Of a stretch of 64,000 nt of DNA, positions 46,453-56,180 are shown piece by piece; position 1 is the first letter of the stretch; each line of letters starts with the position of its first letter. A program made the translations under genes and the position numbers. Below the pieces are notes generated by a model. It made no database searches. It had not been told where the DNA came from and saw nothing but the letters and a program-made list of their open reading frames with translations. This DNA comes from an uncultured Chlorobiota bacterium (GTDB lineage Bacteria > Bacteroidota > Ignavibacteria > UBA10030 > UBA6906): NCBI GenBank assembly GCA_900696645.1, contig CAADGV010000030.1, forward strand, positions 1-64,000. The letters are read 5' to 3'.

Positions 46453-46480
46453 TTGACAAACAGATATAATACGTTATATT
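46453..46480 (+). promoter_or_regulatory. Sigma-70 promoter of the 46.5-56 kb envelope operon
   Basis: TTGACA (46453-46458), a 16-base spacer and TATATT (46475-46480) predict a start near 46488, leaving about 95 bases of untranslated leader. An exact TATAAT (46465-46470) also falls inside the spacer but is too close to this -35 box. Confidence 0.8.
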
Positions 46481-46583
46481 TGCATTTGTCAGTTGAATCG
46501 GTAGTTTGCAAACTCAAAACGAGTAAAACAAGCATTATTGAGTCTGCCGTGCAGTAGTCACTCGGCACATTTTACTCTAATTC

Positions 46584-47159
46584 ATGCAAGGGGTTCTCTT
46601 GTTATATCTTCGCACGCTAATTTATGTGTCCCTCCTGATTCTCACAATTCATTCATCAGCATTTTCCCAACGGGCGGACTCAACACATGCAATGTCTAAG
46701 CCGTCACCAATCAATCTCAATGAGGGAGTGAGCTTCGAAATTGCTCCGCACACCGGATTGATGGGGCGGAGCGGAACATTCGGGCTACGTCTTTCAATGA
46801 ACTACGGATCGTTCAATCTTGAACTGGCGGGAGAGCAGGTGATCGGCAATCTGGCTAATCTATACCCTTTGTCTGTCAATGCAATTCTGAACCTGTCAAC
46901 TCGCTCCCGGCTTATTCCATACGGGGCTGCAGGAGTAGGTTTGCTGCTTACCGTGCCAACCGCAACGATCGGAGATGAGACGGTCTCGTCTCTTGCCGTG
47001 AACTTCGGTGCCGGGGCTCGATATTACTTCACACGATCCTTCGGTGTACGCGTCGAAGTGAAGCAGTATGTCACAAATGTGAAGAACAGCAGAGACCAGA
47101 AGGATGAGTTGCTGCTCTTTCAGGGGATAAGCCTCGGCGTTACATTCATGGTTCGATAA
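46584..47159 (+). CDS. Outer-membrane beta-barrel protein
   Basis: The roughly 186-191-residue exported protein has a signal peptide ending SAFSQ and alternating amphipathic strands (GTFGLRLSMNYGSFNLELAGEQ, ARYYFTRSFGVRVEVKQYV), finishing in FMVR. It resembles small Omp beta-barrel-domain proteins, and no ligand is apparent. ATG 46584 lacks a ribosome site. TTG 46599 has AAGGGG 5 bases upstream and could be the true start. It is the first gene of a long envelope run, with a paralogue-like barrel next. Confidence 0.72.
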   Translation: MQGVLLLYLRTLIYVSLLILTIHSSAFSQRADSTHAMSKPSPINLNEGVSFEIAPHTGLMGRSGTFGLRLSMNYGSFNLELAGEQVIGNLANLYPLSVNAILNLSTRSRLIPYGAAGVGLLLTVPTATIGDETVSSLAVNFGAGARYYFTRSFGVRVEVKQYVTNVKNSRDQKDELLLFQGISLGVTFMVR

Positions 47160-47179
47160 ACATCTACCAACGGAGGAAC

Positions 47180-47761
47180 ATGCGATTTCTACTGACTTCC
47201 TTTTCTCGGCATCGTTTACAGGGCATACTGCTGATTGTCTCGTCTGTATTCATTTCCACTGCTCCGGTACGGGCGCAGATGCCGTATGATAACAGCGTCA
47301 GCATATCGCTGGGCGCGTATGCTGCCAGCGGATTCGGAACGAATTTTAATTACGGAGCGCGATACAACTACTTCATTTCAGGGGGCAAGTTTTTCATTGA
47401 AGGTGCCCTCAGTTTCGGAAGTCTGAAATCCAAGGTTCTCGAAAACATTACGCGATCGCAAGTCTTTGACACAGAACGCCTGTACACATACGAATTCGTT
47501 GCGGGCATTGACCCGTACCCGAACGGCTATACACCCTACTTCGTGATTGGTGTGGCGGGATTGAATCAAGGCGGACAATCGAACTTTGCCGGTGTGCTCG
47601 GCCTTGGCAAGAGAGTTCCGCTGAAGGGTTTGTTTGGAGGTGACAGGCTGGGATTCCGGTATGATGTACGTGATCAGATTTTTTCCCAAAGAATAATGAA
47701 TAATGATCCGTTTATCTCACATAACATCGTCTTCACGCTCGGATTGCAACTGTATTTCTAA
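47180..47761 (+). CDS. Outer-membrane beta-barrel protein
   Basis: The 193-residue protein has a signal peptide ending VRAQ and then about eight predicted strands (SVSISLGAYAASG, FFIEGALSFGSLKSK, NIVFTLGLQLYF) ending in the aromatic F typical of barrel proteins. It is similar in size and style to the preceding barrel, but the sequences are not obviously duplicated. GGAGG lies before the ATG. It is separated from the next gene's start by 33 bases; the two barrels may support secretion or anchoring of the downstream envelope proteins. Confidence 0.75.
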   Translation: MRFLLTSFSRHRLQGILLIVSSVFISTAPVRAQMPYDNSVSISLGAYAASGFGTNFNYGARYNYFISGGKFFIEGALSFGSLKSKVLENITRSQVFDTERLYTYEFVAGIDPYPNGYTPYFVIGVAGLNQGGQSNFAGVLGLGKRVPLKGLFGGDRLGFRYDVRDQIFSQRIMNNDPFISHNIVFTLGLQLYF

Positions 47762-47794
47762 ATGACACACACCATGAATCTTGGGGAGAGGCGT

Positions 47795-50035
47795 ATGATT
47801 CACAAACAAGTTGTTCTCCGAATATTCTTGAATGTACTGTTGTACGGAGTAATCGGCGCAATGCTTGCGGCGTGCGGTTCTTCACCGCCAGATGACATTC
47901 TGGACAAATCCGGCCAAGCAGCGCTGGTGTTTGTGAAGGAAAAGAGCCGGACGAATAACATCAGCGAGCCGATGCGCAGCAATATCGACAAATACTATCC
48001 CGGCAGTGATCTCTACGTACTCAGCCCGATCTCAAGCCAGGGCAAGCTGACAAATCTGACTGCCCAGTACACAACCAACGGCGTTACCGATCCGCGGAAC
48101 TTCGGTGCTTGTGCCGACCCGGAAGCATCGTACGACGGGAAGAAGATTCTCTTCTCAATGAAAGTAAACCGGAACAGCCGGTGGCGACTCTACGAGATGA
48201 ACGCCGACGGAACCAATCTCGTGCAACTCACGGACGGTTCGACCGGCGACGATATGGATCCGGCGTATCTTCCGAATGGCCAGATTGTGTTCACATCGAC
48301 CCGTCCGGGAATTGTTGATGAGTATGAACGACGCGAATCTCCTCTCCTCCATGTGGGTGATCGTGCGGGTGATGGAAGGCTTGTCAACATCAGGCAGATC
48401 TCGTTCAACCAAAGTCATGACATAAACCCGATGGTTCACTCAAGCGGCAAGGTTATCTATGGCCGCTGGGAACATCTTGGCAACCCGAATAAGTTTCCGT
48501 TGTTCGTTATGAATCCGGACGGGACGCGACCGTTCATCCTGTACGGCAACCACTCTCCGCAGGCAAGCGGCGACAGATCATTTACAGAGGCTCGTGAACT
48601 CTCGGATGGCGGATTAGTGTGCTCGGTGATGGAACGGAACTCTCCGTTTGAAGGCGGCGCAATCGCCATCATTGATATCTCAAAATCGGATGACAATCTC
48701 ACATTCATCTCTCCGCCGGATGCAATCTTCAACAACTCCGGCAGGGCAACAAGCGCCTTCTTCAAAACTCCGCATCCGATTATTGACAAAGGAGCATCGA
48801 CGGAGAGAAGGGAGAAAATCCTTGTTGCCATGTCTCCCATTCCCCGCGAGCCGGGCGGCAGCCGCAGTGAAGGAGTGGACTACGGGATATATATTATGGA
48901 TAAAGACGGTAACAATCTCCGCCTCATCTATAACGATCCCGAGTACAACGAGATCGACCCTGTTCCGCTTCTCCCTCGTGAAAAAATTCCCGGCGGGGTT
49001 CCGCAAGTGATTGCAATGGATCCGAATGTAGCCACCGGACTTGCAACAGCAGCATCAACAGGAATGTTCTTCGACGGCAACGTGTATGATAGGGCGACGA
49101 ACGACGGACAAGTGCGGCCATCGGCGACTTTCGTGAACGATGACGGGTCGGCCGGCCAGGTGAGGTACGTGCGTGTGTTGGAGGCAGTATCGTTGCCGCG
49201 GGAGGGCAACAGGCGAGGTCAGGCCATCGGAAACACGAATCTCGAAAAACAAAGAGTGGTGGGATATGCTGCAGTCAGGTCGGATGGTTCGTTTTCGATT
49301 GAGGTGCCGGCCAACCGTTCGTTGCATCTGCAAACCCTTGACCAGCATGGCGTTATGCTCGTCAACCAATTGACGTGGATTCAGGTGATGCCCGGTGAAA
49401 AGCGTTTGTGCACAGGCTGTCACGATTCTCATGATCGTGACCGGATTATCAACGACCTGCAGATTGCGCCGAACAACCAGGTCTTGAACCGCGCACGCGG
49501 CAGCGCGTATGAATCAGGGTTTCATAACGCCGAAGTCGTTGTGAATCATCCTGCAGCGCGAACCGATACACTCGACTTTTTTGACCGACATCGAACGAAC
49601 CGAACAAACACAGTTCAGGCAGTTTTTGACCGCCGCTGCATTTCCTGTCACGGTGAAACGGCTCCCGCGGGCGCGCTCAGTCTGCAAACAGTTGCAGCCG
49701 ACCTGACGCCGCCCCCGGCAAACAGCAACATTACAACCACTGTGTACGAGAGGATCACGCAGAATGGTACATACCGCACGCCGTCCGGCAGCCAGTTGCG
49801 GTATGTGAGGGACGATGGTGCACGACGCAGTCCGCTCATCTGGGTCATGTTTGGAAAACAATTAAATGATCAAACCAACAGGGATTACAGAACGCTTACG
49901 TACGACCACACACAACTGTGGACGAAGGATCAGTACAACCGAATCGATCCGTTCCTGCCTGCCAACCGTGACTTGCTGATGATGATCGAATGGGTTGACG
50001 CCGGAACCCAGTACTCCAACACTGTAAGCAGATAA
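47795..50035 (+). CDS. Beta-propeller lipoprotein with two haem-c motifs (HzsA-like)
   Basis: The 746-residue lipoprotein (lipidated C27 in MLAACGSS) has a TolB/PD40-type propeller in its first two thirds (YEMNADGTNLVQLTDG, VFTSTRPGIVDEY). Two cytochrome-c sites follow: CTGCH (DSHD after it) and CISCH. This architecture resembles hydrazine-synthase alpha-like proteins, common far outside anammox bacteria and mostly without known function. ATG 47795 has GGAGAGG upstream; the frame to 47762 is not needed. It probably transfers electrons at the outer face, upstream of the DUF4266/DUF3570 pair. Confidence 0.85.
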   Translation: MIHKQVVLRIFLNVLLYGVIGAMLAACGSSPPDDILDKSGQAALVFVKEKSRTNNISEPMRSNIDKYYPGSDLYVLSPISSQGKLTNLTAQYTTNGVTDPRNFGACADPEASYDGKKILFSMKVNRNSRWRLYEMNADGTNLVQLTDGSTGDDMDPAYLPNGQIVFTSTRPGIVDEYERRESPLLHVGDRAGDGRLVNIRQISFNQSHDINPMVHSSGKVIYGRWEHLGNPNKFPLFVMNPDGTRPFILYGNHSPQASGDRSFTEARELSDGGLVCSVMERNSPFEGGAIAIIDISKSDDNLTFISPPDAIFNNSGRATSAFFKTPHPIIDKGASTERREKILVAMSPIPREPGGSRSEGVDYGIYIMDKDGNNLRLIYNDPEYNEIDPVPLLPREKIPGGVPQVIAMDPNVATGLATAASTGMFFDGNVYDRATNDGQVRPSATFVNDDGSAGQVRYVRVLEAVSLPREGNRRGQAIGNTNLEKQRVVGYAAVRSDGSFSIEVPANRSLHLQTLDQHGVMLVNQLTWIQVMPGEKRLCTGCHDSHDRDRIINDLQIAPNNQVLNRARGSAYESGFHNAEVVVNHPAARTDTLDFFDRHRTNRTNTVQAVFDRRCISCHGETAPAGALSLQTVAADLTPPPANSNITTTVYERITQNGTYRTPSGSQLRYVRDDGARRSPLIWVMFGKQLNDQTNRDYRTLTYDHTQLWTKDQYNRIDPFLPANRDLLMMIEWVDAGTQYSNTVSR

Positions 50036-50044
50036 AGAGAAGAA

Positions 50045-50263
50045 ATGAGAATATCACAGTTGTTTGCTGTAGCGTTGCTGCTCTACTTTTTTGCGGGCTG
50101 TTCGTCAACAAAAGTCTATCAGCGCGGCAACCTCGGCGATCCTATCATGGAACGGAAAGATGTGTTCGCGAAACAGAGTCTTGAAGAGAAGTTCTTTTCG
50201 ACTCGCGAGGGAAGCATCGGCGGTACAAGCGGCATCGGCGGCGGCTGCGGTTGCGCAAAGTAA
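50045..50263 (+). CDS. Small DUF4266 lipoprotein
   Basis: The 72-residue protein has a lipobox (FFAGCSS, C19) and the DUF4266 signature: VYQRGNLGDPIMERKD, SLEEKFFSTREGSIGG, and a glycine-rich GGGCGCAK end with two cysteines. In other genomes this family sits beside DUF3570, ApbE flavinylation enzymes and thioredoxins. Here DUF3570 follows, but no apbE or thioredoxin gene is near. The two terminal cysteines could bind metal or be modified; this is unproven. Confidence 0.9.
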   Translation: MRISQLFAVALLLYFFAGCSSTKVYQRGNLGDPIMERKDVFAKQSLEEKFFSTREGSIGGTSGIGGGCGCAK

Positions 50264-50304
50264 TATGACTCATTAAGAAACCGATTCGGGAACGACACAA
50301 CGAC

Positions 50305-51444
50305 ATGAGACGATACATCAAGCCGATTTCCGTATGCACGCTGCTATCATTTCTCCCGTGGTTGACGGGATATGCCGCGGGCGAACGCGAAGGTCTCGGT
50401 TTCACAACGTACTATTTCTCCGACAGCGGCGACAACAGTGTCGTGACGACATCCTTCAAACTCGCCAAGAAACTCCTGGAGAACACGTTGTTTCTGATTG
50501 ACATAGAATTGGATCAGGTCACGGTTCCCGCCGTTACGGCAGTAACCGGTGCTACAAGGCCTCAAAGACGGAAGAACGAACCCTTCGAGAAAAACCGTGG
50601 ACAAATAATCGTCGGTGTGCAGCAAGGTCTCGGAGACAATGCCTCGTTTGCGGGGAACTTCTACCGAAGCCAGGAAATTGACTACGTCTCGAATGCGTTT
50701 GTCGGCATCTTCAGCCACGATCTGAATGACAAGAACACAACGGTGACGTTACGGGGTCAATACAATGCCGATTTGGTCGGCAAAATTCTTGATGATGGTG
50801 ATATCGTCAATCAACGAAAGAAGACTTACAACGGCTCATTCAATCTCTCACAAATCCTTTCTCCCAACACCGTTATGGATGTGAGTTACGATTTTGTGCT
50901 GCACAAGGGATTTCAGAGCGATCCGTACAGGCAGGTACGAGTGCTTGACGGAACAGGTGCTTCGATTACGGTTGATGAACTCCACCCGAACTCACGGACG
51001 CGGCATGCCGCAGCAATGAAGCTGAGCCAGTTTATCGCGCCGATCAAAGCATCCGTTATCGGCAGCTACCGCTACTATTTTGATTCGTGGAAAGTAAAAT
51101 CTCATACAGGCGAAGTCAAGTTCAACAAATATATTCTCAATGATCTCGTCTTCGGTGTCGATTTCCGCTACTACACGCAAACGGCGGCGTATTTCTACAA
51201 AGACAGATATGACGGGAATCAGTATCAGGCGGGGGGACTCCGCACAGCAGATTACAAGTTGAAGGAGTTTTCATCCAACAATTTCGGGTTTACGCTGACG
51301 TATCTGTTACGAGGGCTTGCAAAGTCGAATCCAGACATGCAGTTCCTTCAGGATTCGGCCATAGAACTTCAATATTTTCGATACTTCAACAGCTTGGATT
51401 TTTCGGCTGATATTATTCAAGCAAGCATCACGTTTTCGATTTAA
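50305..51444 (+). CDS. DUF3570 outer-membrane barrel protein
   Basis: The 379-residue exported protein has a signal peptide (cleavage near YAAG) and continuous barrel-like strands ([53 protein letters not shown]), ending ITFSI. This is the DUF3570 family, the constant companion of DUF4266. Barrel size (about 16 strands) suggests a porin-like or electron-conduit sheath. It follows DUF4266 by 41 bases. With the dihaem propeller lipoprotein before it, the set resembles a porin-cytochrome arrangement, which is an inference. Confidence 0.85.
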
Positions 51445-51458
51445 TCGGGGAGAAGCGT

Positions 51459-53918
51459 ATGAGTACCATAAAAGTGTGTGCAGTGATGGTGATGAGCGCT
51501 GGCATGTGGGTGACGGCAAGTGCAGGAGGGTCACGCTCGCCTGAGCAGTTGGGTGCACACTGGGCACGGGTTTCCGATGAGGCGCAGATTCAGCTTATCG
51601 TTGATAGGCTGAGATCGGGTGGTGGTGAAGGGACGGTGAGGAAACTCGTGCCCGCCAATCTTGCAACAGCAACACAAACATCAGGGCACTCGCTCGCAGG
51701 GGAGCGCGGTGGGACGACAGGAGCGGTGCGTACATCTACCAATGTGGCTGCGGAGCGGCAACGGGGCGGCCGCTCGTCGTACAGCGTAAATATGCAGGCG
51801 AACGCAGCCACGGTGGATTTTCCTTCCGGCGAGAAGCTTGAACTGCAAAAAGCCGAAGGTTTCTGGAAAGTGACCGGTGGTTCAGTCCCCAAGGGTCTGT
51901 CCGCGGAGGAAGGTGAAGCCCGCTCGATCACCACCATAACGGGAGGCTCCGGGGTATCCGTTGGAGAAACGTTTGCCCCCGCCGCAATCAGCCGTGAACA
52001 CAGCATAGGACGTTTGACGAGCGGTGTGACGCGGGCTCGAATAGGCCGGCAACTGTTCGGTGCGCCGGAAAATACAGCCTCGTACTACAGTGTTAGCTAC
52101 AGGAAATCAGCTCCATTTGTCGAGGCAACGTACATTCAATTTGTTCTTGATCCGGAATGGAATCGCATTGTGTACGGCAGCATGGGAAACTGGATCAGAA
52201 CATACACTGTGCAAAGTCCGTCGGGAATTGCGGTGGATGCGGACGGTAATGTGTTCGTCGGAGAAGCTGCAAACAAGCGCGTGCTGGTACTGAAACTCAC
52301 GGGCAGCGGAAACGATGCGGTGCTGCAGCATCGCCATCAAATTAACAACATCACAACGCCGACCGACATTGCCATCAACGACAACGGCACGCCGTTCAAC
52401 ACGGACGACGATTTCGTGTACATCGCGGACGCATCGCAAAACAACATCTACAAGTACACAGGCGGCGCAGGCCGCAACTCGCTTGTTGCAGTGTACGAAG
52501 GTTTCGACTCGCCGACCGGAATTGCAGTCGGCAGATGGAACGGGGCGAACGAGAACATCCTTTATGTTATTGACAAAATTGCAAAACGCATTCGAGTGTA
52601 CGACGACGAGGGCACATCCCTCTTTCTGTTGGGGGAATACAAGGGTGATTACAGCCAGTATTTTTCATCAATAAAGATTGACCATTTCGGGCATGTGTAT
52701 GTTGTCGACAAGGTGAACTCCCGAATTCTGAAATTCACATCCTCGCTCGACCTTCTCGATGCGGAAGGCGGAGATGATACCTACCAAGCGCTGGCGCATA
52801 TTGATATCCCTTTTGCAAAAATCGTTGTTGAAGGCGAAGGGAGCTATTGGACAGGGTTCAACCAGTTGTTTGCCGTTGAACGTTGGGACAACGGCAGCGG
52901 CGCACAACGTCGTACGCTCGGCGTAAAGATGAAGAATATCGAATTCAGCGCCGATGCCGATATCAGCGCTGTGCGTAATGATTTTATCCTGACCGATGTC
53001 AGCAATGTCCATGTCAGGATTTATGATGAGAACAAGCGGCTCGTTCGCACTCTGACTTCATCGTGGATGGTTGCCGGAAGCAAGGACCTGCAGTGGGACA
53101 GGAGAGATGATGAGGGAACGCAGGTTCCTCCCGGCACGTACCGTTATGAAGTCGGAGCAACATCGGCGTACGGCGGCGAGCCGACAATTTCGAATACCCG
53201 CTTCTATTTGCCGTTGTATTACCATGAAGATTGCGGCAGTACAAACCGGATGAATGATGCACATCTCGTTCAGGGAAGCGCTGTGGCATGGGGCTCTGCT
53301 CCGTCGCAAACAGCGAGTGAGCACGGTTCGTCGGTGCAATACAGGTTCACCGGTTTGAACCCGGCGGGTGAGTATGAAGTCGCTGCAGAGTGTGCGGCCG
53401 GTGATGGAGTGCAGCGACTTCAGGAATTAACCGCCGATGGCATCCGCGTCGGCGGGCATATTCGTGTTACGGCAAACCCTGCAGCAACAGGCTTCATGAA
53501 ACTTCCGCAGGAGAGCTACGCCGACGGTGAGGTGACGATTGCCGTGAACAGACTTGCCGAAGGCTCGGCGGTGGTAACCCAGTTGTGGCTGAAGGAAACC
53601 GGCGTCGGGTTTAACCCGCAGCCAATTGCCACGGTGCCCTCGAAGTACCTGCTTGAGCAGAACTTCCCAAATCCCTTCAACCCGACAACAACCATCCGGT
53701 ACGCAATCCCGGAAGATGCTGTCGTAACGTTGAAGGTGTACAATATCAACGGACAGGAAGTGGCAACACTGGTAAGCGAGCCGAAGGCAGCAGGCAAATA
53801 CGAAGTAACATTCGACGCGAAAAACACGCTCGGCAGTTCACTCTCGTCGGGCATTTATTTCTACAGAGTGACGGCGGGAAGGTTCACGGAAACGCGCAAA
53901 ATGGTTTTGTTGCGGTAA
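51459..53918 (+). CDS. Secreted NHL-like beta-propeller protein with type IX C-terminal domain
   Basis: The 819-residue exported protein has a signal peptide ([15 protein letters not shown]) and a long low-complexity region. Six or so propeller blades of NHL type follow ([47 protein letters not shown]), with a FlgD-like Ig segment ([24 protein letters not shown]) and a carbohydrate-binding-like portion. The last 90 residues are a type IX sorting domain ([11 protein letters not shown]). It is surface-exposed or secreted. GGGGAGA precedes the ATG, 15 bases after the DUF3570 stop. Confidence 0.88.
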
Positions 53919-53993
53919 GATGTGAGCTATTACATTACAATAAATAAACAAACGATACGGTACGAACGTTGGAGTAATCGGGGAGATACGAAA

Positions 53994-55448
53994 ATGAAAA
54001 CACTTGCACTTTGTGTAGTATTACTCATTGTTTGTTTCACACCTCAAGTTCTTGCTCAGCCATCTGTTACATGGGTGAACGCATACTATACCGATTGGGA
54101 CTATCAAAGAATGCCCCCGAGCGCTATCGACTTTCGGGGACTGACGAACATCATCTTCATCAATCTCGATCCAATCGGCAGCCCTCCCTACTTTCAATTT
54201 CACTGGCCCGGCCAGCAGGTCTTTGAGGCAACCGCAGCCGATTTGATTGCCCGGGCTCATGCCAACGGCGTCAAAGTACTTCTCGGCCTGGGCGGCGTGT
54301 GGTGCTCCGGCGACTGCGGGGGAAATGCATTCCTCAACCATGCGAATGATCCGGTATGGGTTCACAACTACGTGACCGCCGTTCTCAATTATGCCAGATC
54401 CAAAGGGTATGATGGAGTTTCGCTCGATTGGGAAGGAAGTGTGTTTCGTGAGGGATGGATCCGGCTTACCGACAGTCTCAGGGCCGGACTGAACAGGTGG
54501 AATCCAAGAGGCAAGTTCAGCGCTGCCATTGCCGGCATGATTCAGATGGGTTGGAACAATCCCTACGATATTGCCGCGCTCAACAGGAATATCGACTACA
54601 TCGAATCCATGACGTTCGATCTGAATGGATATTGGAGCGGCGCAAGCGGCTTCAACTCACCGCTGTATGACCCGACTCCTAACTGGCCCGGATACAGAGG
54701 CGATAACGTTCACCAGTCGTCGCTCAACTGGATAGCTCGCGGCGTTGAGCCGGCGAAGTTTGCCACGGGTATTCCATTCTACGGTTTTAAGTGGTGGGGG
54801 ATTACGGCTCCGGGACAGACCGGTTGGTCCAACAGTTATTTTACACGGTATCATTTTGTTCTGCGGGAGGATTTGGGCAAAGGTGTGCTGCGCAGGGATA
54901 CACAGTCGAAGACACCCTGGATCAGCAAAGTGAACGGGCAACTTGGCTCGAACGAAACGGCATACATTGATTACCACGATTCGCAAGCCGTGACCGAAAA
55001 AGTAAACTATGCCCTCCAGCAGGGGCACGGCGGGATAATGGTTTTCGATCTGAATTCAGGATATCTGGACCCGCAGAACTATCCGAATGTTTCTGACAGA
55101 AATCCGCTGCAAACTGCAATGAGAGTCGCACTGGGGTCGACATCACTTCAACCGCCCGACATACTACCCCGAGGGTTTCTGTTGGAGCAGAACTTTCCGA
55201 ATCCCTTCAATCCAACAACAACAATACGATACGCATTGGCGGAGGATGCAGTTGTTACATTGAAAGTGTACAACATGATCGGGCAGGAAGTTGTAACGTT
55301 GTTGAATGAGCCGAAACAAGCCGGAACGTACGAAGTAACATTCGAGGCGAGGAACAACCGTGGCGATGCACTGACCTCGGGGGTGTATTTTTACGAAATG
55401 AAGGCAGGCGGCTACTCCGAAACAAAGAAGATGGTTCTGCTACAATGA
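53994..55448 (+). CDS. Secreted GH18 chitinase-like glycosidase with type IX C-terminal domain
   Basis: The 484-residue secreted protein has a signal peptide ending VLAQ and a GH18 TIM barrel. The catalytic DxxDxDxE region reads DGVSLDWEG (the terminal Glu is the acid), a substrate strand GVKVLLGLGG precedes it, and a YIESMTFDLNGYW strand follows. The second Asp of DxDxE is Leu here (S-L-D-W-E), which is seen in some GH18 members. The C-terminal 90 residues are a Por domain almost identical to that of the preceding gene. ATG 53994 follows GGGGAGA. The target could be chitin or peptidoglycan-like glycans. Confidence 0.9.
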   Translation: MKTLALCVVLLIVCFTPQVLAQPSVTWVNAYYTDWDYQRMPPSAIDFRGLTNIIFINLDPIGSPPYFQFHWPGQQVFEATAADLIARAHANGVKVLLGLGGVWCSGDCGGNAFLNHANDPVWVHNYVTAVLNYARSKGYDGVSLDWEGSVFREGWIRLTDSLRAGLNRWNPRGKFSAAIAGMIQMGWNNPYDIAALNRNIDYIESMTFDLNGYWSGASGFNSPLYDPTPNWPGYRGDNVHQSSLNWIARGVEPAKFATGIPFYGFKWWGITAPGQTGWSNSYFTRYHFVLREDLGKGVLRRDTQSKTPWISKVNGQLGSNETAYIDYHDSQAVTEKVNYALQQGHGGIMVFDLNSGYLDPQNYPNVSDRNPLQTAMRVALGSTSLQPPDILPRGFLLEQNFPNPFNPTTTIRYALAEDAVVTLKVYNMIGQEVVTLLNEPKQAGTYEVTFEARNNRGDALTSGVYFYEMKAGGYSETKKMVLLQ

Positions 55449-55511
55449 ATTCCATGCAACTGAGCCATATAACAATCACACCATTCCAACGACATGACAT
55501 GAGGCAGAGAG

Positions 55512-56180
55512 ATGTTATCGAAATATCGGGCTTTGCGGGTGACGGCATTGGCCGTTGCATTCTTAACAACAACATCATCGGCAGGGGTGTTTTCCACTGC
55601 ACTGCTTGCCGGTTATAAGGGCGGGACTGGTTTTGCATTGAGCGGATCAGCAGCCGGGTTTGCTTCCGGTTTTCCACTTGCGTTTGAATTCACAGTCGGT
55701 CACGCCCGGATGGATCCGGGGAGCGCGGAACTGGCACGAAAGATCTTCATCAACGATGCTACGGACGGAACGCCCGAAAAGGCAGGCTGGATGTGGGATA
55801 TGCAGTTCGATTTTCTCCATCCCGTCAGGATACTCGGACTGAACAATGCCAACGTGTATGCAGGTGTCCGCTATTCCGTTTTCACGGCTAACTTCAAGTT
55901 CGTTGGAGGGAATGAAGACTTCGACGTCACAAGCTATCAATGGGGAATAGGGGCAGGCGTGAAGGCGTTGTTTCCGATGAGCAGAAGTCTGGGATTTGTT
56001 GTGAAGACAGGCGTTGAGCATTTCTTCACCGGAACACTGTACGGGCACGATACATCCTACAGCCCGAACGGCGAATATGTGAACAGGAGGAGAGACTATA
56101 CGTTTAAGGAGGCGGACGCTGTTGTCAATCAGCCGAAGTTTCACTTGGTAGGAATGCTGGGAATCAGCTACGCGTTCTGA
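55512..56180 (+). CDS. Outer-membrane beta-barrel protein
   Basis: The 222-residue exported protein has a hydrophobic signal (VTALAVAFLTTTSSAG) and antiparallel strands rich in alternating residues (FASGFPLAFEFTVGHARM, NVYAGVRYSVFTANFKFVGG, YQWGIGAGVKALFPMSRSL), ending GISYAF with C-terminal F. It is probably an eight-stranded barrel of no named family. It is the last clear gene of the envelope run and 63 bases after the GH18 gene. The mature part lacks cysteine. Confidence 0.75.
   Translation: MLSKYRALRVTALAVAFLTTTSSAGVFSTALLAGYKGGTGFALSGSAAGFASGFPLAFEFTVGHARMDPGSAELARKIFINDATDGTPEKAGWMWDMQFDFLHPVRILGLNNANVYAGVRYSVFTANFKFVGGNEDFDVTSYQWGIGAGVKALFPMSRSLGFVVKTGVEHFFTGTLYGHDTSYSPNGEYVNRRRDYTFKEADAVVNQPKFHLVGMLGISYAF

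Follow-up and report, generated by a model that had tools for sequence, protein, structure and literature searches.

What is built by an operon in which DUF4266 and DUF3570 genes lie beside a dihaem cytochrome and cargo of the type IX secretion system? The question is raised by a locus at positions 46,453 to 56,180 of the window, a 64,000-nucleotide stretch of contig CAADGV010000030.1 from an uncultured Chlorobiota bacterium, for which an earlier reading of the sequence (the original prediction) had suggested a surface redox or glycan-modification machine. We consider that the first six of its eight genes, g1–g6, probably encode one outer-membrane haem–flavin–thiol electron-transfer module. 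A redox function is the most likely one for the operon, and the redox half of the earlier suggestion is well supported. The six genes are as follows.

46584..47159, + strand: g1, exported small outer-membrane beta-barrel of 191 amino acids (OMP_b-brl 28.1 bits, cut-off 28.7)
47180..47761, + strand: g2, exported small barrel of 193 amino acids, TIGR04565-like (weak TIGR04565 match, 35 bits)
47762..50035, + strand: g3, dihaem c-type lipoprotein of the HZS_alpha fold (HZS_alpha 76.5 bits, PD40, two CxxCH motifs)
50045..50263, + strand: g4, small DUF4266 lipoprotein (PF14086, 52.9 bits)
50305..51444, + strand: g5, predicted DUF3570 outer-membrane barrel (PF12094, 133 bits)
51459..53918, + strand: g6, NHL-like propeller with FlgD Ig and type IX sorting domains, 819 amino acids (family searches)

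The same set (g1–g5 plus g6) is kept beyond the genus. It is common to Ignavibacteria and Calditrichota, and its core also occurs in Gammaproteobacteria, with identities of roughly 25-72% across the three groups and two different gene orders. Of 60 relatives, four have both a strong HZS_alpha match and DUF3570, and each of the four has them in a single cluster; in a fifth genome the set is a plain thioredoxin–DUF4266–DUF3570 one that lacks the cytochrome. In a contig scan, the same set turned up with 60–72% identity in Calditrichota and with about 31% in a Burkholderiales metagenome-assembled genome (MAG), there in the order ApbE–cytochrome–CX4CH lipoprotein–barrel–barrel–TlpA–DUF4266–DUF3570. 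By profile search, 9 of 40 Calditrichota genomes have a close, long relative (a contig end truncates one of these), as do roughly 50 of 369 Gammaproteobacteria. When the count is limited to cytochrome-clade loci with a flank uncut by contig ends (57, tallied from locus tables), DUF3570 adjoins the cytochrome-clade gene in 56, the exception being a split cytochrome gene; none of eight distant HZS_alpha loci has DUF3570. Bias from selecting top hits was partly checked with 15 extra gammaproteobacterial matches, of which 10 have the module, 1 lacks it and 4 are truncated by contig ends, and with five distant HZS_alpha loci, none of which has the module. At one gammaproteobacterial locus (L125, 8434-10254), the cytochrome gene is split into two open reading frames (ORFs) with the DUF3570 module not adjoining, possibly a natural loss.

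Trees of the cytochrome and of DUF3570 display the same deep split, with strong support, between Ignavibacteria plus Calditrichota and Gammaproteobacteria. The gene order is b0–g1–g2–g3–thioredoxin–DUF4266–DUF3570–g6 in the former and g3–g1–g2–thioredoxin–DUF4266–DUF3570 in the latter; the linkage has thus outlived rearrangement of the genes. The gene order was also sought in related genomes, as had been set beforehand, and the unit proved to be conserved in close relatives. All eight genes had been taken as a unit in the original prediction. This is true of g1–g6, which are kept beyond the genus, and not of g7 and g8, which are genus-specific. Within the window's phylum the cytochrome-bearing variant is rare: in a 395-genome sample, DUF3570 occurs in 117 genomes, whereas the window's genus is alone in having this cytochrome; beyond the sample, it is present in two more genomes from the window's family. 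A MAG recorded as 'Deltaproteobacteria bacterium PRO9' (L027) was sampled as part of the Calditrichota group, and its cytochrome clusters with those of Calditrichaceae, so the record name is probably wrong.

The haem-binding member of the set is g3, a propeller lipoprotein. Its two CxxCH motifs (at 550 and 626) are invariant across 30 homologues, and its lipobox is LAAC (Cys38). The predicted model (mean predicted local distance difference test score, pLDDT, 80) matches chain A of hydrazine synthase (5C2V) over nearly its full length, with a template modelling (TM) score of 0.65/0.64 and an E value of 9e-34. The overall fold and two haem c sites of g3 are those of HzsA and of HzsA homologues from outside the anammox bacteria (Hagglund et al. 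2025, PMC12758564). It is unlike HzsA in that Tyr591 is not conserved, in lacking a beta/gamma partner, and in being a lipoprotein with DUF4266, DUF3570 and barrel partners. At the position of the Tyr591-type axial ligand of haem alpha-I, the aligned residue of g3 is D558 (CTGCHDSHD versus CSGCHYGSY in hydrazine synthase), and no homologue shown has Tyr there. Family searches found no beta or gamma subunit gene among the eight operon genes, and the score against NF052339 (129 bits) is far under the 800-bit NCBIfam cut-off. On these three grounds, the absent axial Tyr, the absent beta/gamma genes and the low score, identification of g3 as hydrazine synthase was rejected. Genomes of the same order also encode HZS_alpha proteins of 825-1052 amino acids with type IX tails of their own and no DUF3570 nearby (L023 8038-11067, L024 7562-10720 and L025 5496-7973), which suggests surface-displayed haem proteins of this fold.

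The thiol and flavin sites are found in g4 and g5, which are adjacent and both score above curated cut-offs. The g4 lipoprotein (lipobox FAGC, Cys19) ends in a C-terminal CXC (C68, C70). The g5 model is a 16-strand barrel (mean pLDDT 86) whose structural matches are outer-membrane barrels, and it carries two ApbE-type flavinylation motifs, TGAT (81–84) and TGAS (217–220), which lie in the long loops that join strands 3/4 and 9/10. By the usual rule that termini and short turns are periplasmic, both loops would face outwards. The first site, [S/T]xA[S/T], is present in 45 of 46 DUF3570 homologues; the second-site TGAS is kept only within the window's genus. In Chlorobium luteolum, biochemical work has demonstrated flavinylation of DUF3570 by that organism's ApbE, at a pair of [S/T]GA[S/T] motifs (PMC8238504).

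The remaining members are also conserved. The OMP_b-brl match of g1 falls just below the cut-off, and its gammaproteobacterial homologue combines SH3_3 and OMP_b-brl; the gammaproteobacterial homologue of g2 scores 170 bits to TIGR04565. Both small barrels are kept with the module. In Ignavibacteria and Calditrichota, g6 is the conserved last member, with homologues after DUF3570 in eight loci (L019, L021, L028, L030, L060, L062, L063 and L064). The TIGR04183 sorting domain scores 44.6 bits in g6 and 39.9 bits in g7 (cut-off 23), and the genome has a PorU sortase (C6:66071-69388; 919 bits versus a cut-off of 420), the type IX machinery being judged by PorU alone. Elsewhere in the same genome (G000:C10:82255-92363), two side-by-side ORFs of 1808 and 1821 amino acids contain PorU-like stretches and type IX tails.

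It had been supposed that DUF4266 and DUF3570 here had exchanged their usual ApbE and thioredoxin for the cytochrome. Nearly all homologous loci instead have cytochrome and TlpA, often with ApbE adjoining, and in most of them the TlpA thioredoxin lies directly before DUF4266. Because cytochrome and TlpA co-occur in most loci, replacement of thioredoxin by the cytochrome was rejected. ApbE adjoins or lies inside the module in some other genomes, several of these being gammaproteobacterial loci, and was found in 8 of 10 genomes checked (all but G003 and the MAG G439). Judged from gene content, both thioredoxin and ApbE belong to the DUF4266/DUF3570/cytochrome system, and the window's genus has lost its linked thioredoxin. 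A check for distant partners in the window's own genome turned up a single, unlinked ApbE copy (C24:60257-61102) and nine TlpA-like matches, the best of them 35% identical and unlinked. In genome G014, a 252-amino-acid acidic lipoprotein with a weak fn3 match lies between cytochrome and thioredoxin (L019, 10803-11561).

We propose the following route for electrons. A periplasmic thiol carrier, the linked TlpA in most loci, would exchange electrons with the CXC lipoprotein DUF4266; in the window's genus an unlinked thiol carrier would have to stand in. DUF4266 would hand the electrons to flavin mononucleotide (FMN) attached by ApbE at the TGAT-bearing loop of the g5 barrel. Next would come the dihaem lipoprotein g3, reaching a surface substrate or acceptor, with the two small barrels anchoring the complex and the type IX-secreted propeller g6 as its outermost partner. 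We infer that the g1–g6 proteins form one complex, that the carriers are ordered thiol–DUF4266–DUF3570–g3, and that the FMN sits on the outer side of the outer membrane. Several points weigh against this proposal. A conserved neighbourhood is no proof of a physical complex, and the operon contains neither a multihaem conduit nor a terminal reductase. The genus has no linked thioredoxin, which is missing from the window, from G001 and G012, and from a few further loci; ApbE is unlinked, and its modification of the window's DUF3570 is putative. The outward orientation of the g5 loops comes from a rule applied to a model, and a single transcript for g1–g8 is suggested by the gene gaps, which are indirect evidence.

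How much of this was already known? The DUF3570/DUF4266/thioredoxin/ApbE core was described in 2021 among 'DsbD systems' (Meheust et al. 2021, eLife 10:e66878, PMC8238504), with which the module shares the CXC DUF4266, the ApbE-motif DUF3570 and a genomic ApbE. A linked TlpA is likewise present in most module loci, and the window is without a linked thioredoxin or ApbE. What the module adds is a constant dihaem HZS-alpha-fold lipoprotein, two small barrels and a type IX protein. The main text of the 2021 paper (PMC8238504) contains none of the terms PD40, hydrazine and beta-barrel. A search on DUF4266/DUF3570 and their Pfam numbers returned only that paper, and no description of the constant cytochrome plus barrels, or of the gammaproteobacterial linkage given below, was found in the literature searched, which left subscription journals mostly outside its scope. 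Within that literature, the original prediction that no system with this set has been described stands for the whole unit, four core genes of which are known. The module also resembles MtrCAB-type porin-cytochrome conduits in combining an outer-membrane barrel with an exported cytochrome c. Such conduits hold about 20 haems, whereas the module has two, and its barrel is DUF3570 with flavin motifs rather than MtrB. One class of non-anammox relatives of hydrazine synthase alpha gains a constant partner set, and, if the proposal is correct, a partly described DUF3570 flavin system becomes an outer-membrane haem–flavin–thiol unit of six to seven fixed parts.

In Gammaproteobacteria the module has further neighbours. 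About 40 loci carry it with a conserved protein of about 185 amino acids, a tetratricopeptide repeat (TPR) protein of about 630 and a TPR lipoprotein of about 940, and ExbB, two ExbD and a TonB-like protein lie near the module in 8 of 9 extended flanks. This make-up (TPR, TPR, ExbB, ExbD, ExbD, TonB-like) is that of the Group B Agl/Glt core, reported as a gene cluster in non-gliding bacteria (Luciano et al. 2011, PMC3169522); the likeness to Myxococcus Agl/Glt proteins is by domain make-up only, and neither the window nor its relatives have such genes next to the module. About 32 gammaproteobacterial loci are flanked by a conserved trio consisting of a monohaem protein of about 400 amino acids, a LamG dihaem lipoprotein of about 850 and a twin-arginine translocation (TAT) protein of about 550 (L077 11563-16994, also L086, L095, L098 and others), with no Pfam family besides LamG and a TAT signal. 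Neither the TPR/ExbB/ExbD/TonB genes nor the trio had a match beside the module in seven Ignavibacteria/Calditrichota loci tested, and no TPR/ExbB/ExbD/TonB genes were found in the window's neighbourhood of the module. A link of TonB clusters to cellulose use in Teredinibacter (PMC10734418) was set aside, as those clusters carry other genes and have no bearing here. Tentatively, and with somewhat more doubt than confidence, we suggest an as yet undescribed redox machine of the outer membrane, shared by three or more phyla, in which a CXC lipoprotein, a flavinylated barrel and a cytochrome of the HZS-alpha fold carry electrons across that membrane and which is built into an Agl/Glt-like proton-driven complex in Gammaproteobacteria. 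The module is in any case tied there to a conserved, uncharacterised Agl/Glt-like core; were it built into that complex, non-gliding bacteria would have in it a redox-coupled machine.

The same surroundings bear on an alternative that we regard as unlikely, namely that the module serves maturation or quality control of surface machines. Its thiol, flavin and haem parts would then tune the redox state of cysteines or cofactors in client proteins, which would be placed on the surface by a proton-driven machine of the envelope, a TonB/ExbBD-type plus TPR system in Gammaproteobacteria or type IX secretion in Ignavibacteria and Calditrichota. TlpA-type thioredoxins are the usual reductants of extracytoplasmic thiols. 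The 185-residue and two TPR proteins of the roughly 40 gammaproteobacterial loci, the ExbB/two ExbD/TonB-like genes of 8 of 9 extended flanks, and the type IX-secreted protein that ends the module in the other two groups would all suit such a role. However, the seven Ignavibacteria/Calditrichota loci tested have no motor genes next to the module, g6 and g7 contain few cysteines, and thiol maturation needs no two-haem cytochrome.

Reduction of iron or another metal at the outer membrane for assimilation is improbable. VIT1 iron transporters do occur in 25 DUF3570 clusters (Meheust et al., PMC8238504), but family searches and reading recognised no metal transporter or TonB-dependent receptor in the operon or in the modules of the loci examined.

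The suggested surface glycan-modification machine, centred on a GH18 enzyme, depends on the last two genes of the operon:

53994..55448, + strand: g7, GH18 glycosidase carrying a type IX sorting domain (GH18 117 bits; DGVSLDWE motif); its signal peptide start, earlier placed at 53922, was corrected to 53994
55512..56180, + strand: g8, exported protein of 222 amino acids, barrel-like by reading (no family match)

The GH18 gene, joined by a GH9 gene in the sister genome, does lie within the same gene run. It is beside the module solely in the window and G001, however, and absent there in the other Ignavibacteria, Calditrichota and Gammaproteobacteria loci examined, which makes it a late, replaceable addition; g8 has a counterpart, 95% identical, in G001 only. 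Both are genus-specific passengers. Since GH18 is not conserved and not core, the glycan reading is unsupported and was rejected as very improbable. In the sister genome (L021, 1382-3397), the GH9 enzyme, with a type IX tail, is inserted between GH18 and g8, and the operon tail therefore looks like a slot for exchangeable cargo. A hydrazine-synthase-like nitrogen enzyme is scarcely credible, for the full-length HZS-alpha fold (TM 0.65) and 129-bit NF052339 match of g3 are set against the 800-bit cut-off, the replaced Tyr591 and the beta/gamma genes absent from the operon.

The remaining features of the locus concern its transcription and borders:

46453..46482, + strand: promoter TTGACA-16-TATATT (11 of 12 matches; alternative Bacteroidota-type reading TTG-N19-TATATTTG)
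Upstream neighbour of the operon: leftward gene, citrate synthase by reading
Downstream neighbour of the operon: convergent gene, polyphosphate kinase by reading

The eight + strand ORFs (46584–56180) all run rightward with successive gaps of 20, 0, 9, 41, 14, 75 and 63 bp, and an N-terminal hydrophobic export segment is present in each of g1–g8. A search of the intergenic gaps for + strand terminator-like sites found none; internal terminators splitting the operon had been named in advance as evidence against a single unit. The promoter block fits both the sigma-70 consensus and the Bacteroidota pattern TTG-N19-TAnnTTTG (46453/46475). It is nearly unchanged in the sister genome (L021), where the flanking sequence has diverged, and the early description of one promoter followed by eight rightward, exported genes was upheld.

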